This document shows positions 11,262 through 22,168 of a stretch of DNA of 64,000 nt, in pieces. Numbering within the stretch: the stretch's first letter is position 1; every line of letters begins with the position of its first letter. This DNA is from Alcanivoracaceae bacterium (GTDB lineage: Bacteria > Pseudomonadota > Gammaproteobacteria > Xanthomonadales > Marinicellaceae), in NCBI GenBank assembly GCA_016744455.1, contig JADGEI010000002.1, positions 124,001-188,000 on the forward strand, given 5' to 3'. The translations under genes and the position numbers were made by a program. Below the pieces are notes generated by a model. That model saw only the letters and a list, made by a program, of their open reading frames with translations. It did not search any database and was not told the DNA's origin.

Positions 11262-12011
11262 TTATGCTCTCTTGCCTTCAAACTCTTCTATACTATTTCC
11301 TCCTTTCTCTTTTGCCACTTCCAGCGCCTGATTGGATTCTTTCATCGTTTCTTGTAAAGAGGTTTTGTCCTTACAGTCATTAGAACCAATGCCAATACTA
11401 ATTGTATATTGAATATATTTATCTTTACAAATAACAACTCTTTTCCTTATTTTTTCAAACAACCTTTCTGAAAAAGCTTTTGCTTGTTCTGGCGTTGTAT
11501 CCGATAAAAAGAAAGCAAATTCTTCACCATTAATTCGGGCCAAAATATCACTTGTTCGTGCAACATCATTTGCTGCTTTTCCAAAAATCATCAGTACCTT
11601 GTCACCACATTGGTGTGAATAATTATCATTAATTTGTTTGAAGCCATCCATATCTATCGTTAAAATACAATATGGGTGTTTATTACGAACGGAAAGGTTG
11701 TGTTGTTTTTCTGCGGCCAAGTAAAAGGTCTGTCTGCTATATAGCCCGGTTAAGATATCTTTTGCAGATAAATTTTCTAAGGTTTCTTCTTGTTTTTGTA
11801 ATTTATCAAGTGTATCTTTAAGGTGTGAAATAATAAACGGGAAGACCACTAACGGAATGATTGTTGCTCGCAATAAATCTTCAGAGGTGGTTAACTTATG
11901 CCCTAACGTTTTTGCAATAAGGTAGTCTAATAATACGCTTACCACCACAGCCAATAGTGTAAAAACAATTAATGCACTTGTTCTACTTTGCTTTTGAATA
12001 AAGTTAATCAT
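11262..12011 (-). CDS. Membrane diguanylate cyclase with a variant GGDEF motif
   Basis: 249 aa. Two membrane helices (about residues 14-34 and 48-62) and a short coiled linker precede a GGDEF domain. The substrate-binding segment LTIDMDGFKQINDNYSHQCGD is intact. The signature loop reads NGEEF (residues 161-165) instead of GGDEF/GGEEF, while the product-inhibition I-site RxxD is present as R152-T-S-D155 five residues before it. It would make c-di-GMP if active; the first-glycine change leaves activity uncertain. Confidence 0.88.
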   Translation of the reverse strand: MINFIQKQSRTSALIVFTLLAVVVSVLLDYLIAKTLGHKLTTSEDLLRATIIPLVVFPFIISHLKDTLDKLQKQEETLENLSAKDILTGLYSRQTFYLAAEKQHNLSVRNKHPYCILTIDMDGFKQINDNYSHQCGDKVLMIFGKAANDVARTSDILARINGEEFAFFLSDTTPEQAKAFSERLFEKIRKRVVICKDKYIQYTISIGIGSNDCKDKTSLQETMKESNQALEVAKEKGGNSIEEFEGKRA

Positions 12012-12152
12012 GTACGAATACCCCTGCTATTATATTTAGTCTAGGTTGTTTGTTACAAGGTAATTGCTTTACCTGCTTACATGATACGCCTGTTTTTGCC
12101 TATTTGTCAACTCAAAATTCTCGATCAAATTTAGCTGTTTTCAAGTTTTTAT

Positions 12153-13484
12153 TTATTTTCCTATACAAAATGAAGAGAATATTTCGCCAAGTAAATCATC
12201 ACTGGTAAATTCTCCTGTTATTTGACTTAGGAAATCTTGAGCTAAACGTAAATCTTCTGCTACCAGCTCTCCTGCCTGTTGTTTTAAAAAATTATATTCT
12301 GCTTTGCTAATATTTTTTAGCGTTTGTTTTAACAAATTAATGTGACGAGAGCGAGCTGAAAAACTTGTTTCAATTGTTTGTTGGTTTCCTATCATACTAA
12401 TAATTTTGCTTTCTAACTGATCAAAACCCTGTTTTGTTTTTGCTGATAATGTAACTTCATTTTCCTTTAATTTTGTTAATTTCTTACTTAAATCAATTTT
12501 ATTATAAACAATAATTTTACGTTTACTAAAAGATAATTCTGACAAAATATTTAGCTGTTTATTTCTATCATCCGTAGTATCTATTACCTGTAATATAATA
12601 TCTGCTTGCTGAAGTATCTTTTTGGCCCTTTTTATGCCTTCTTGTTCAATTTTATCATCAGTTATATGAATACCCGCAGTATCTATAATGGTAATTGGCA
12701 CCCCTTGAATATTAATGTTTTCTTTAACAATATCACGAGTTGTTCCAGCGACATCAGAAACAATGGCTGTTTCACTCCTAGTAAACAAGTTTAACAAAGA
12801 GGATTTTCCAACATTTGGTTGGCCAATTATCCCAATAGTTACCCCTTTATTTAATAGTTCTCCTTGTTGTGCTTGATTCAATAATTTTTTTATTGTTATA
12901 TGTAGGTTTTCCATTTTGTTTTGTTTTTCGCTATCCGCCAAAAAATCTATTTCTTCTTCAGGAAAATCTATCGCAGCTTCTATCCAAACCCTCAAGGATA
13001 TAAGTTCATATAATATTTGCTCAACTTTTTTGGAAAAATCGCCTTGCAGAGAACGTTGAGCTGCCTTTGCCGCTTGCTCTGTTGATGAACTTATCAAGTC
13101 AGCTATAGCTTCTGCTTGAACTAAATCTATTTTATCATTTAAATAAGCTCGTTTAGAAAACTCACCTGCTTCAGCCTGCCTTGCACCGTATGAAAGTATC
13201 GCTTGTAAAAGCATGTTTAATATAACCATTCCCCCATGCGCTTGGAATTCAATGACATCTTCTCCAGTAAAAGAGTTGGGGTTTGGAAAGTAAAGAACCA
13301 ACCCTTCATCAATTATATGTCCTTGATGAACAAACTTTGAAAAAGTGGCTTGTTTTGGGATTGGTGTTTTATTTGTTAGCTTATTACAAATAGTGTAAGC
13401 ATTTGGTCCTGAAATTCTAATAATACCAACGCCGCCTGCTCCAGGTGCTGTTGCAATTGCAGCGATGGTGTCATTATTGTTCAT
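12153..13484 (-). CDS. mnmE: tRNA modification GTPase MnmE
   Basis: 443 aa, normal length. With MnmG it makes the cmnm5 modification at the wobble uridine of certain tRNAs. It has an N-terminal folate-binding domain (MNNNDTIAAIATAPGAGGVG), a central G domain with GQPNVGKSSLLN, DVAGTTRD, DTAG and NKID, and the conserved C-terminal CIGK that carries the catalytic cysteine. It follows yidC with a 6-bp gap as the last gene of the rpmH-rnpA-yidC-mnmE operon. mnmG is not within the window. Confidence 0.98.
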   Translation of the reverse strand: MNNNDTIAAIATAPGAGGVGIIRISGPNAYTICNKLTNKTPIPKQATFSKFVHQGHIIDEGLVLYFPNPNSFTGEDVIEFQAHGGMVILNMLLQAILSYGARQAEAGEFSKRAYLNDKIDLVQAEAIADLISSSTEQAAKAAQRSLQGDFSKKVEQILYELISLRVWIEAAIDFPEEEIDFLADSEKQNKMENLHITIKKLLNQAQQGELLNKGVTIGIIGQPNVGKSSLLNLFTRSETAIVSDVAGTTRDIVKENINIQGVPITIIDTAGIHITDDKIEQEGIKRAKKILQQADIILQVIDTTDDRNKQLNILSELSFSKRKIIVYNKIDLSKKLTKLKENEVTLSAKTKQGFDQLESKIISMIGNQQTIETSFSARSRHINLLKQTLKNISKAEYNFLKQQAGELVAEDLRLAQDFLSQITGEFTSDDLLGEIFSSFCIGK

Positions 13485-15910: not shown

Positions 15911-17215
15911 ATGCTTTGGGAAAAATGCCTTAACCGTTTAACATCAGAAATTGATAAACAAATTATTGATATTTGGTTAAAACCTCTACAGGTAAAACAA
16001 ACAAATAACAACTTAACAATTATCGCACCTAATTCACTAATTGTTGACAAAATAAAATCAGAGTTTTTATCCCTAATAACCCTTGCTTTAAACGATATTA
16101 CTCAATCCGACATTACTGTAAATATATCTTTACCCCAACAAACACCTCAAAAACAACAAATACCTCTTAGCCACTCTATCGATACATCATCAATTCCATC
16201 AAATTTAAATGTTAAATTTACATTCGAAAGTTTCGTAGAAGGCAATTCTAACTCTATCGCGAAAGCTGCTGCCTTACAAGTTGCTCAAGAGTCTCTAACA
16301 CAATTTAACCCATTGATAATTTATGGTAGTACAGGACTAGGGAAAACTCATTTGTTGCACGCCATTGGTAATAAAATTTTACAAGATGATTCAAACGCCT
16401 CTGTTACTTATGTTCATTCAGAACAATTTGTAAACAATATGATTTATGCTTTAGGTAATAAGTCAATATCTGAATTTAAAAAACAATACCGTTCTGTAAC
16501 TGCCTTATTAATTGATGATATTCAGTTTTTTGCTGGTAAAAATCGTTCACAAGAAGAGTTTTTTCACACATTTAATACATTACTCGAGTGTAATCAACGT
16601 GTAATAATTACAAGTGATCGTTTTCCTAAAGAAGTAAATGGCCTAGAACCACGATTAAAGTCACGATTAGGTTGGGGCTTAAGTGTTCCTATTGACCCAC
16701 CTGAATTTGAAACACGTGTTGCTATTTTAAAGAATAAAGCTATTCAACAAGGTTTTATATTAGCTGATGATGTTGCTTTTATTCTTGCAGAAAAAATAAA
16801 ATCAAACGTTAGAGAATTGGAAGGAGCCCTTAATACATTATGGGCAAAAGCACATTTTAAGAAAACTGATATTACCTTAGATTTTGCAAAACAAGAATTA
16901 AAAGAACTTTTTAATATCCATTCAAGGCATATTTCAATTGAAAAGATACAAAAACAAGTTGTAAACTACTATAATATAAGATTATCAGATTTGTTATCTA
17001 AAAAAAGAACAAGATCTTTAGTTAGGCCACGACAAATGGCTATGTATTTATCTAAAGAGCTAACCGATAAAAGTTTACCAGAAATAGGTGAGCAATTCGG
17101 TGGTCGTGATCACACAACTGTTTTATATGCACATAAAAAAGTTGTTTTGTTGTTTGAAGAAAACCCTGAATTTTTGGAAGATAAACAAAAACTAATAAAT
17201 TTATTAACAACGTAA
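15911..17215 (+). CDS. dnaA: Chromosomal replication initiator DnaA
   Basis: 434 aa. It binds DnaA boxes and opens the origin. Domain I (residues 1-75, MLWEKCLNRLTSEID...) is intact, and domain II is a short glutamine-rich linker. The AAA+ domain carries GSTGLGKTHLLHA (Walker A) and ALLIDDIQFFAGK (Walker B). Domain IV ends with the DNA-binding signature GGRDHTTVLYAHKKV. It is followed by the proposed origin and dnaN. The possible AGGA ribosome binding site is unusually far from the ATG (about 17 bp). Confidence 0.98.
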   Translation: MLWEKCLNRLTSEIDKQIIDIWLKPLQVKQTNNNLTIIAPNSLIVDKIKSEFLSLITLALNDITQSDITVNISLPQQTPQKQQIPLSHSIDTSSIPSNLNVKFTFESFVEGNSNSIAKAAALQVAQESLTQFNPLIIYGSTGLGKTHLLHAIGNKILQDDSNASVTYVHSEQFVNNMIYALGNKSISEFKKQYRSVTALLIDDIQFFAGKNRSQEEFFHTFNTLLECNQRVIITSDRFPKEVNGLEPRLKSRLGWGLSVPIDPPEFETRVAILKNKAIQQGFILADDVAFILAEKIKSNVRELEGALNTLWAKAHFKKTDITLDFAKQELKELFNIHSRHISIEKIQKQVVNYYNIRLSDLLSKKRTRSLVRPRQMAMYLSKELTDKSLPEIGEQFGGRDHTTVLYAHKKVVLLFEENPEFLEDKQKLINLLTT

Positions 17216-17432: not shown

Positions 17433-18533
17433 ATGATATTTAATATACAACGAGAAACTCTTTTACACCCACTTTCAGAAATAATTGGGGTTGTTGAAAA
17501 AAAACAAACTTTAGTTATATTAGGGAACTTTTATATAAAAGCTAGGGATAATATGTTACGTATCACAGCAAGTGATTCGGAAGTTGAAATGGTTGCAAGT
17601 TGTACAGCTGAAATAATAGAAGAAGGCGAGATAACTTTACCTGCTAAAAAATTCCATGATATATGTAGAGCTTTACCAGATGGCTCTATGTTGAATTTTT
17701 CTTTAGATGGTAATAAAGCAAAGCTTCAAACAGGAAAAAGTAAATTTTCATTATCTTCATTGCCTGCTAAAGAATTTCCTCTTATAGAAAACATTGAAAC
17801 CTATGATACTCTTACAATGGAAACAGGAAATTTACGCAAAGCATTAAGCCAAACAACTTTTTGTATGGCTATACAGGATGTTCGGTATTTTCTAAACGCT
17901 TTACTGTTTGAAATTGCAGACGATAAAATTATATGCGTTGCTGCAGATGGTCACCGTTTATCTTTATCTGAAACTAACTTTATAAATAAAAACAATATAA
18001 ATAAGCAATTACTTATACCAAGAAAGGGTGTTTTAGAACTTCAAAAATTAATTCGCGATAAAGAACTTACTATTGAGATTAACGTAGGAAAAAACCACGT
18101 TAATTTTTTATGTGATAATACAAGTTTAACTTCAAAACTTATTGATGGTAATTTTCCTGACTACCAAACAGTAATACCACTGCAGTTAGAACAAACAATG
18201 ACTGCAGATAAAAACACACTAAAATCTGCACTACAAAGGGTTGCAATTTTATCAAATGATCAATATAAAGGTGTGAAATTCAATATTACTAAGAATATTT
18301 TGAAAATTATTGGACACAACCCTGAACAAGAACAAGCAGAAGAAATCATAGAAATAAACTCTGATATTGAAGACATAAGTACAGGCTTTAACGTATCGTA
18401 TATAATTGATGCTATTAATGCCATTGAAGGGGACACTATTATGTTTAATTTCAAGGATGCAACAAGTAGCTGTTTAATTAAACACCCAGAAAACAATAAT
18501 TGTAGATTGGTAGTTATGCCTATACGTATCTAA
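17433..18533 (+). CDS. dnaN: DNA polymerase III sliding clamp (beta)
   Basis: 366 aa, the normal clamp length. It forms a ring dimer that tethers the replicative polymerase. Family features include LPAKKFHDICRALPDG, ADGHRLSLSE and the C-terminal CRLVVMPIRI. The ATG directly follows the TA tract of the origin, and no Shine-Dalgarno sequence is visible in the preceding 20 bases, which is unusual for a highly needed protein. recF follows 62 bp downstream. Confidence 0.98.
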   Translation: MIFNIQRETLLHPLSEIIGVVEKKQTLVILGNFYIKARDNMLRITASDSEVEMVASCTAEIIEEGEITLPAKKFHDICRALPDGSMLNFSLDGNKAKLQTGKSKFSLSSLPAKEFPLIENIETYDTLTMETGNLRKALSQTTFCMAIQDVRYFLNALLFEIADDKIICVAADGHRLSLSETNFINKNNINKQLLIPRKGVLELQKLIRDKELTIEINVGKNHVNFLCDNTSLTSKLIDGNFPDYQTVIPLQLEQTMTADKNTLKSALQRVAILSNDQYKGVKFNITKNILKIIGHNPEQEQAEEIIEINSDIEDISTGFNVSYIIDAINAIEGDTIMFNFKDATSSCLIKHPENNNCRLVVMPIRI

Positions 18534-18595: not shown

Positions 18596-19642
18596 GTGAT
18601 TATTCAAAATTTAAAAATATATAACTTTAGGTGCATTAAAGAGGTCGAGTATGACCTAATAAAACAAGTAAATGTTTTCCATGGTGATAATGGGGTCGGG
18701 AAAACCAGTGTTTTAGAAGCCATTCATTTCCTATCTACCGGAAAATCTTTTAGAAAGTGTACTTATAAAAACCTAATAAAGCACAATGAAAATAAATTAA
18801 CCACTTATATTAAAGGTGAGGATAACACCATATCTGTTGAAAAAAACAAAAATGGTAAATGGAAAGCTAAGTATAATAATAATCTTATACATAAACAATC
18901 ACATGTTACTTCAATTCTTCCAATAGTTTCTATAGATCCTGATGTGTATCGTTTAGTAGAGGCTGGACCTATTTCTAGACGCAATTTCTTAGATTGGCTC
19001 GTGTTCCACGTGGAACACAAACATTTGTTATTATGGAAACAAACCTATAAATGCATAAAACAATTAAATACCTTGTACAAATTTAAAGCTTCTAGTGAAG
19101 AATTGAATTTGTGGGAAAAGAACCTTGTTCTTTTTGCTACTAAGTTAACGTTAATTAGAGAAGAGTACTATAAAAAAATTGAACCAATTGTTTATAAACA
19201 AGCTAAACTAATGTTGCCAGAAGTAAAAAACATAACAATAGAATTTAAGAAGGGTTGGTCTGAGCATTTATCATTTGATGAACAGTTAACAAAAGATAGA
19301 AAAAAAAATTTATTGTATGGAACACTTCAAAATGGGCCACAAAAAATGGATATTGTAATAAAAGCTAATGGAATAAATGCATCCCAAACATTATCGCGAG
19401 GCCAAAAAAAAATTCTTTCAATTAGTTTTTATATGGCATATGTTAAATTACTAGTAGAAAATAATGTTTTACCAATCATTTGTTTAGATGATTTTGATGC
19501 AGAATTAGATAAAATAAAATTTAATATGGCAGCTAGATTTTTCAATAACCTTGGCTTGCAAATTTTAATTACTACTGTACAACCAGAAAACGTGCTTTCT
19601 GTTTTTCCTGATGCAAAAATGTTCCACGTGGAACACGTTTAA
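18596..19642 (+). CDS. recF: Recombination mediator RecF with two embedded parS sites
   Basis: 348 aa from GTG 18596. It acts with RecO and RecR to load RecA at gaps. Walker A is GDNGVGKTSVLEA, the ABC signature region is TLSRGQKKILSIS, and Walker B is IICLDDFDAELD. The peptide FHVEH occurs twice, once in mid-protein (DWLVFHVEHKH) and once at the extreme C-terminus (MFHVEHV). Both are encoded by a perfect parS palindrome, so the coding sequence has been shaped by ParB binding as well as by RecF function. Confidence 0.97.
   Translation: MIIQNLKIYNFRCIKEVEYDLIKQVNVFHGDNGVGKTSVLEAIHFLSTGKSFRKCTYKNLIKHNENKLTTYIKGEDNTISVEKNKNGKWKAKYNNNLIHKQSHVTSILPIVSIDPDVYRLVEAGPISRRNFLDWLVFHVEHKHLLLWKQTYKCIKQLNTLYKFKASSEELNLWEKNLVLFATKLTLIREEYYKKIEPIVYKQAKLMLPEVKNITIEFKKGWSEHLSFDEQLTKDRKKNLLYGTLQNGPQKMDIVIKANGINASQTLSRGQKKILSISFYMAYVKLLVENNVLPIICLDDFDAELDKIKFNMAARFFNNLGLQILITTVQPENVLSVFPDAKMFHVEHV
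19002..19017. promoter_or_regulatory. parS: parS centromere site 1 (inside recF)
   Basis: TGTTCCACGTGGAACA is a perfect 16-bp palindrome, extended to 18 bp by flanking G and C. It matches the parS sequence used by Pseudomonas ParB and closely resembles the B. subtilis parS. It should load ParB for origin segregation. parA and parB are not in the window. Confidence 0.9.
19620..19635. promoter_or_regulatory. parS: parS centromere site 2 (end of recF)
   Basis: A second identical 16-bp TGTTCCACGTGGAACA palindrome, 618 bp after the first. It spans the last codons of recF (FHVEH) and ends just before the stop. Two exact copies of a 16-mer in one gene cannot plausibly be chance. Confidence 0.9.

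Positions 19643-19711: not shown

Positions 19712-22168
<2,457 letters not shown>

Follow-up and report, generated by a model that had tools for sequence, protein, structure and literature searches.

Two parS sites within recF have been described in Pseudomonas aeruginosa, in which parS1 (TGTTCCACGTGGAACC) and parS2 (TGTTCCACGTGGAACA) were placed inside the gene, ParB binding at parS and its role in segregation were shown in vivo, and any one of parS1-4 was found to be enough for segregation (PMC4368675, PMC5521831). In this species, an excess of ParB lowers the expression of the region that includes gyrB, whose mRNA falls about two-fold, and the loss of ParB or mutation of parS1-4 raises the expression of PA0010-PA0015 only, and not that of recF or gyrB (PMC5521831). 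The recognition residues that separate parS-type from Noc-type ParB proteins have also been defined, and E. coli is known to have neither ParB nor parS (PMC7383237). In this study, we report two copies of the 16-mer TGTTCCACGTGGAACA in the recF gene of a 64,000-nucleotide stretch of DNA (the window). The locus is a further instance of the published arrangement, and its extent across the class Gammaproteobacteria, its conservation at the level of DNA and its decay in the absence of ParB were worked out here. A literature search for reports of recF-borne parS across the class returned papers on P. aeruginosa only; Livny et al. 2007, reportedly the classic parS survey, was outside the scope of that search.

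The gene carrying both sites is recF (18596-19642, forward strand), which has a GTG start, encodes 348 amino acids and matched the RecF model TIGR00611 over its cut-off (E 2.1e-83). It lies on the same strand as dnaA (15911-17215; TIGR00362, E 1.7e-158), dnaN (17433-18533; TIGR00663, E 4e-92) and gyrB (19769-22168; PRK14939, TIGR01059). Site 1 (19002-19017, forward strand) is read in frame as the end of V136 followed by F137-H138-V139-E140-H141, and site 2 (19620-19635, forward strand) as the end of M342 followed by F343-H344-V345-E346-H347. The two copies are separated by 618 bp, start to start, and after the second FHVEH only V348 and the stop codon remain, so that the sequence-only reading, which had placed both FHVEH-coding copies in recF and the second at the C-terminus of RecF, was correct on these points. 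The RecF C-terminus (19636-19642) thus ends one residue past the motif; the median in relatives is seven further residues, and a tail of two residues or fewer after site 2 was seen in 3 of 124. The pair is origin-proximal, being located within dnaA-dnaN-recF-gyrB with rnpA and yidC upstream, the position of oriC having been taken from this gene order. The gyrB start codon lies 134 bp downstream of site 2. The gap between recF and gyrB also contains a weak promoter-like sequence, TTGAGT-16-TATAAT with TG before the second hexamer (19712-19739), from a scan that found two such sequences against 1.2 expected.

Both copies are perfect palindromes and exact matches to the parS consensus TGTTNCACGTGNAACA. 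No further match to TGTTCCACGTGGAACA with up to three mismatches was present in the window (0.14 expected), and two copies occurred in none of 100 shuffles. The sequence-only reading had named a 16-mer common across the genome, or the lack of parB, as grounds for giving up the parS identification; neither applies to this genome. The assembly (3,623,685 bp, 47 contigs, 99.96% complete) contains exactly two copies of TGTTCCACGTGGAACA, the recF pair, against a chance expectation of 0.0004 copies per genome at the 35.3% GC measured on the window. A pattern search of the 3.62 Mb genome found no other TGTTNCACGTGNAACA site, and allowing two mismatches added two poor sites, neither of which fits the consensus.

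The genome has a single chromosomal-type parB, lying in the order rsmG-parA-parB near 108-110 kb of contig C41, and its product scored over the cut-off of TIGR00180; a cognate parA-parB pair is present. The recognition stretches of this ParB read GRSRASVSN and MGHAR, and it carries R173 and G201, the parS-type residues, together with G170, S172, N178 and R204 (Caulobacter numbering). A Noc binding site was ruled out, because the protein has R173 and G201 in place of the Q173 and R201 of Noc and the sites are of the parS type; the protein scored 230.5 with the Noc model TIGR04285, below its cut-off of 315. In many gammaproteobacteria, mnmE is followed by mnmG-rsmG-parAB. The mnmE region of the window (11262-13484) has no such genes after mnmE, rsmG-parA-parB being on another contig. 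Given their sequence, rarity and position beside dnaA-dnaN-gyrB, and a ParB whose recognition residues are of the parS type, we identify both 16-mers, with high confidence, as true parS sites that make up the entire parS complement of the chromosome, at which ParB would load and on which selection would act at the level of DNA.

The distribution of the pair was determined by a RecF search of 276 gammaproteobacterial genomes, sampled evenly over the class, from which 150 recF regions were read. Matches to TGTTNCACGTGNAACA with at most one mismatch were found at the position homologous to site 1 in 127 of the 150 genes and at that of site 2 in 124; one or both positions carried a site in 139 and both did in 112, both being exact in 58. 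The spacing was nearly always 612-633 bp. Two parS copies in one gene, which the sequence-only reading had set apart from well-established parS sites close to oriC, are not special to the window genome; they are the usual state in the class, and are also represented by parS1 and parS2 of P. aeruginosa. A pattern search of the same genomes returned 202 exact parS, 174 of them at the two recF positions; 121 genomes have at least one exact copy, and in 100 of these every copy lies in recF. A second set of 80 named gammaproteobacterial loci agreed with this picture, most having kept one or both sites, including those of Marinicella, Pseudomonas, Halomonas, Alteromonas, Pseudidiomarina, Shewanella and Aeromonas; this set was found partly via the peptide F[LI]DW[GL][VC]FH, which overlaps site 1, and so provides names and not frequencies. 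The nearest named relatives by RecF identity were a Lysobacterales MAG (54%) and Marinicella (42-45%). One genome of the main set has seven exact parS, none of them exact at the two recF positions, and three genomes of a family with a divergent ParB have no exact parS anywhere and lack both sites in recF. Outside the class, parS was absent from both positions in all 20 recF genes from other classes of Pseudomonadota. The C-terminal strand of RecF in these classes often reads F-x-V, with FHV in two sequences, and is a plausible starting point for parS in recF.

Since the sites are also coding sequence, the palindromes could be a by-product of FHVEH being a functional motif of RecF that is kept for the protein. 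In E. coli, which has no ParB, site 1 does retain FH..E in the form FHNEP, and ParB-bearing species with a decayed DNA site (the Pseudomonas fragi group and Photobacterium) keep FHVEP there, so some constraint at the protein level exists as well. However, silent positions are fixed inside parS but free at the Phe codon and at the third base beyond the 16-mer. Of 255 FHV[EK] sites, 248 had the codons CAC-GTG-(G/A)AA, where the codon usage of the individual genes would give 17.8. When 125 testable recF columns were ranked by codon bias, ranks 1-5 were taken by the parS columns V139, V136, V345, H138 and H344, and ranks 8 and 9 by the Glu columns E140 and E346; in these seven columns a single codon accounts for 95-98%, the median over recF columns being 34%. 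The Phe columns, whose third base is an N position of parS, ranked only 27 and 47, and the codon with its third base just outside the 16-mer ranked 72. The codon before Phe was nearly always NTG, giving the TG that opens parS. Moreover, residues of opposite charge, E and K (GAA/AAA), swap exactly at the second N base, and FHVE at site 1 is missing from the 20 RecF sequences of other classes and from the aligned solved RecF structures of other bacteria. Conservation for the protein only was rejected on these codon tests and is very improbable. The codon pattern, the free Phe codon and the placing of E/K at an N base are accounted for by selection on DNA and not on protein, and support the view, put forward by the sequence-only reading, that recF is doubly constrained by a repair protein and by chromosome segregation, with selection on DNA dominant. 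To the question whether FHVEH is kept as DNA or as protein, the alignment thus answers mainly as DNA.

The Phe codon was found to covary with E/K across the dyad (odds ratio 10, P 2e-9), clearly in the lower two GC3 strata and most weakly in the highest (P 0.05). The two sites of one genome were alike at their N bases in 65 of 109 cases against 41 expected, a likeness that may reflect base composition. Palindromes near the recF-gyrB junction could also function at the RNA level by forming a hairpin or terminator. A simple terminator scan did flag site 2 on both strands (two found, 0.1 expected), and at positions 5/12 the combinations C-G, T-G and T-A occur often and C-A seldom, the pattern expected of RNA pairing that allows G-U. 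The same counts are nevertheless fitted by three factors treated as independent, namely a bias in Phe codons over the whole gene (fitted 2.25, observed 2.38), a preference for E over K of 6 and a dyad term of 3.2. Furthermore, site 1 is equally constrained although it lies in the middle of the gene, at many sites the outer bases do not pair (T with C in 40 of 245 and G with A in 11 of 245), and a role in RNA leaves unaccounted for both the uniqueness of the pair in the genome and its decay in the absence of ParB. A hairpin or terminator was rejected on the mid-gene site, the broken outer pairs and the three-factor fit, and is likewise very improbable. Recognition by another DNA-binding protein, for which the common palindromic core CACGTG could be cited, is scarcely credible, as the full 16-mer follows the parS consensus including its N positions, only two copies exist in the genome and a chromosomal-type ParB is present.

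Selection on parS would be expected to lapse together with ParB. In E. coli K-12, recF site 1 reads GCTTTCACAACGAACC (FHNEP), with six mismatches, and site 2 reads TGTTTACCGTGGAAAA (MFTVEK), with three; Citrobacter, Pectobacterium and Xenorhabdus resemble E. coli, site 2 differing from parS at 2-3 positions and site 1 at 6-9. Within one genus, a ParB-bearing genome retains TGTTTCACGTGGAACC and TGTTCCACGTGGAACA, and two ParB-less genomes have decayed sites; a further ParB-less genome has neither recF site. One exception has an intact site 2 and has lost site 1, though ParB was missing from both the protein and the TIGR00180 searches of its assembly, which is only 95% complete. Comparison of these sequences shows that the recF parS sites have decayed in several ParB-less lineages, as a release of constraint would predict.

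Additionally, a small number of genomes with an altered core were identified. Both recF sites of genome G084 are TGTTTCATATGAAACA, with core CATATG (FHMKH and FHMKQ), and its ParB has the substitution G170S; both sites of G022 are TGTTCCACATGGAACA, with core CACATG (FHMEH and FHMEQ), and its ParB has L at 171 and R204K. ParB was substituted at residue 170, 171, 172 or 204, all published as DNA contacts, in 5 of 6 altered-core genomes and 1 of 50 with the canonical core, in a comparison for which positions and groups were picked after seeing the data. Co-divergence of ParB and parS in G084 and G022 is only suggestive and is treated as a lead, because of this post hoc choice and because the altered-core ParBs evolve fast overall, deviations being five times as frequent in them (0.079 against 0.015) when every conserved column is counted. 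Widening the scan added no genome in which both recF sites are altered. In another genome, G148, both recF sites are changed alike to CACGTA and the ParB contact residues differ. It is conceivable, though on balance doubtful, that the gammaproteobacterial centromere was ancestrally this recF pair and that RecF sequence drifts with ParB recognition; if so, an altered DNA-binding protein would change the sequence of RecF, an unrelated repair protein.

By analogy with P. aeruginosa and other ParABS systems, we infer that, in the organism of the window, ParB binds at the two sites and spreads from them, and that they act in segregation and SMC loading. ParB, encoded elsewhere beside parA and rsmG, would most probably load at the recF pair in the form of a CTP-dependent clamp, and then slide or spread into recF and its neighbours. 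As gyrB starts so close to site 2, the operon would lie inside the spreading zone. The resulting ParB complex beside oriC would be moved apart by ParA and would serve as a zone of SMC recruitment and loading. Selection on the DNA letters of the centromere would then fix the silent codons CAC, GTG and GAA/AAA and the upstream NTG, as well as part of RecF itself, FHV[E/K][H/Q/P], at two places; silent codons and RecF residues are frozen because these positions of recF are the centromere. The sequence-only reading had offered the locus as a natural test of how ParB spreading affects recF and gyrB, a test already run in P. aeruginosa (PMC5521831).

A centromere here leaves its mark on a protein, as a class-wide motif that looks functional in an alignment and is mostly kept for DNA, and the FHVE residues of RecF should not be taken as catalytic or interface residues. 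The recF parS sites offer a clean system for overlapping constraint on DNA and protein, in which the two can be pulled apart by synonymous recoding and the release is seen in lineages that lack ParB. The position of the centromere is tied to dnaA-dnaN-recF-gyrB, and ParB loading would sit on an essential replication operon.

The window locus resembles the chromosomal ParABS systems of Caulobacter and Bacillus (PMC7383237, PMC5815017) in its 16-bp consensus, ParB recognition residues and origin-proximal location, and differs from them in that their parS sites are not a recF pair. The homologous positions in E. coli recF are readable as parS remnants. The closest likeness is to P. aeruginosa, which also has two parS within recF beside oriC, its parS2 being the identical 16-mer at the C-terminal position; in strain PA7 the homologous positions read TGTTCCACGTGGAACC (VFHVEP) and TGTTCCACGTGGAACA (MFHVEH). 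P. aeruginosa has eight further parS and its parAB genes about 7 kb from oriC, whereas the window genome has the recF pair alone, in two perfect copies, and its parAB genes are separated from the pair by 141 kb or more, as judged from contig-end distances.
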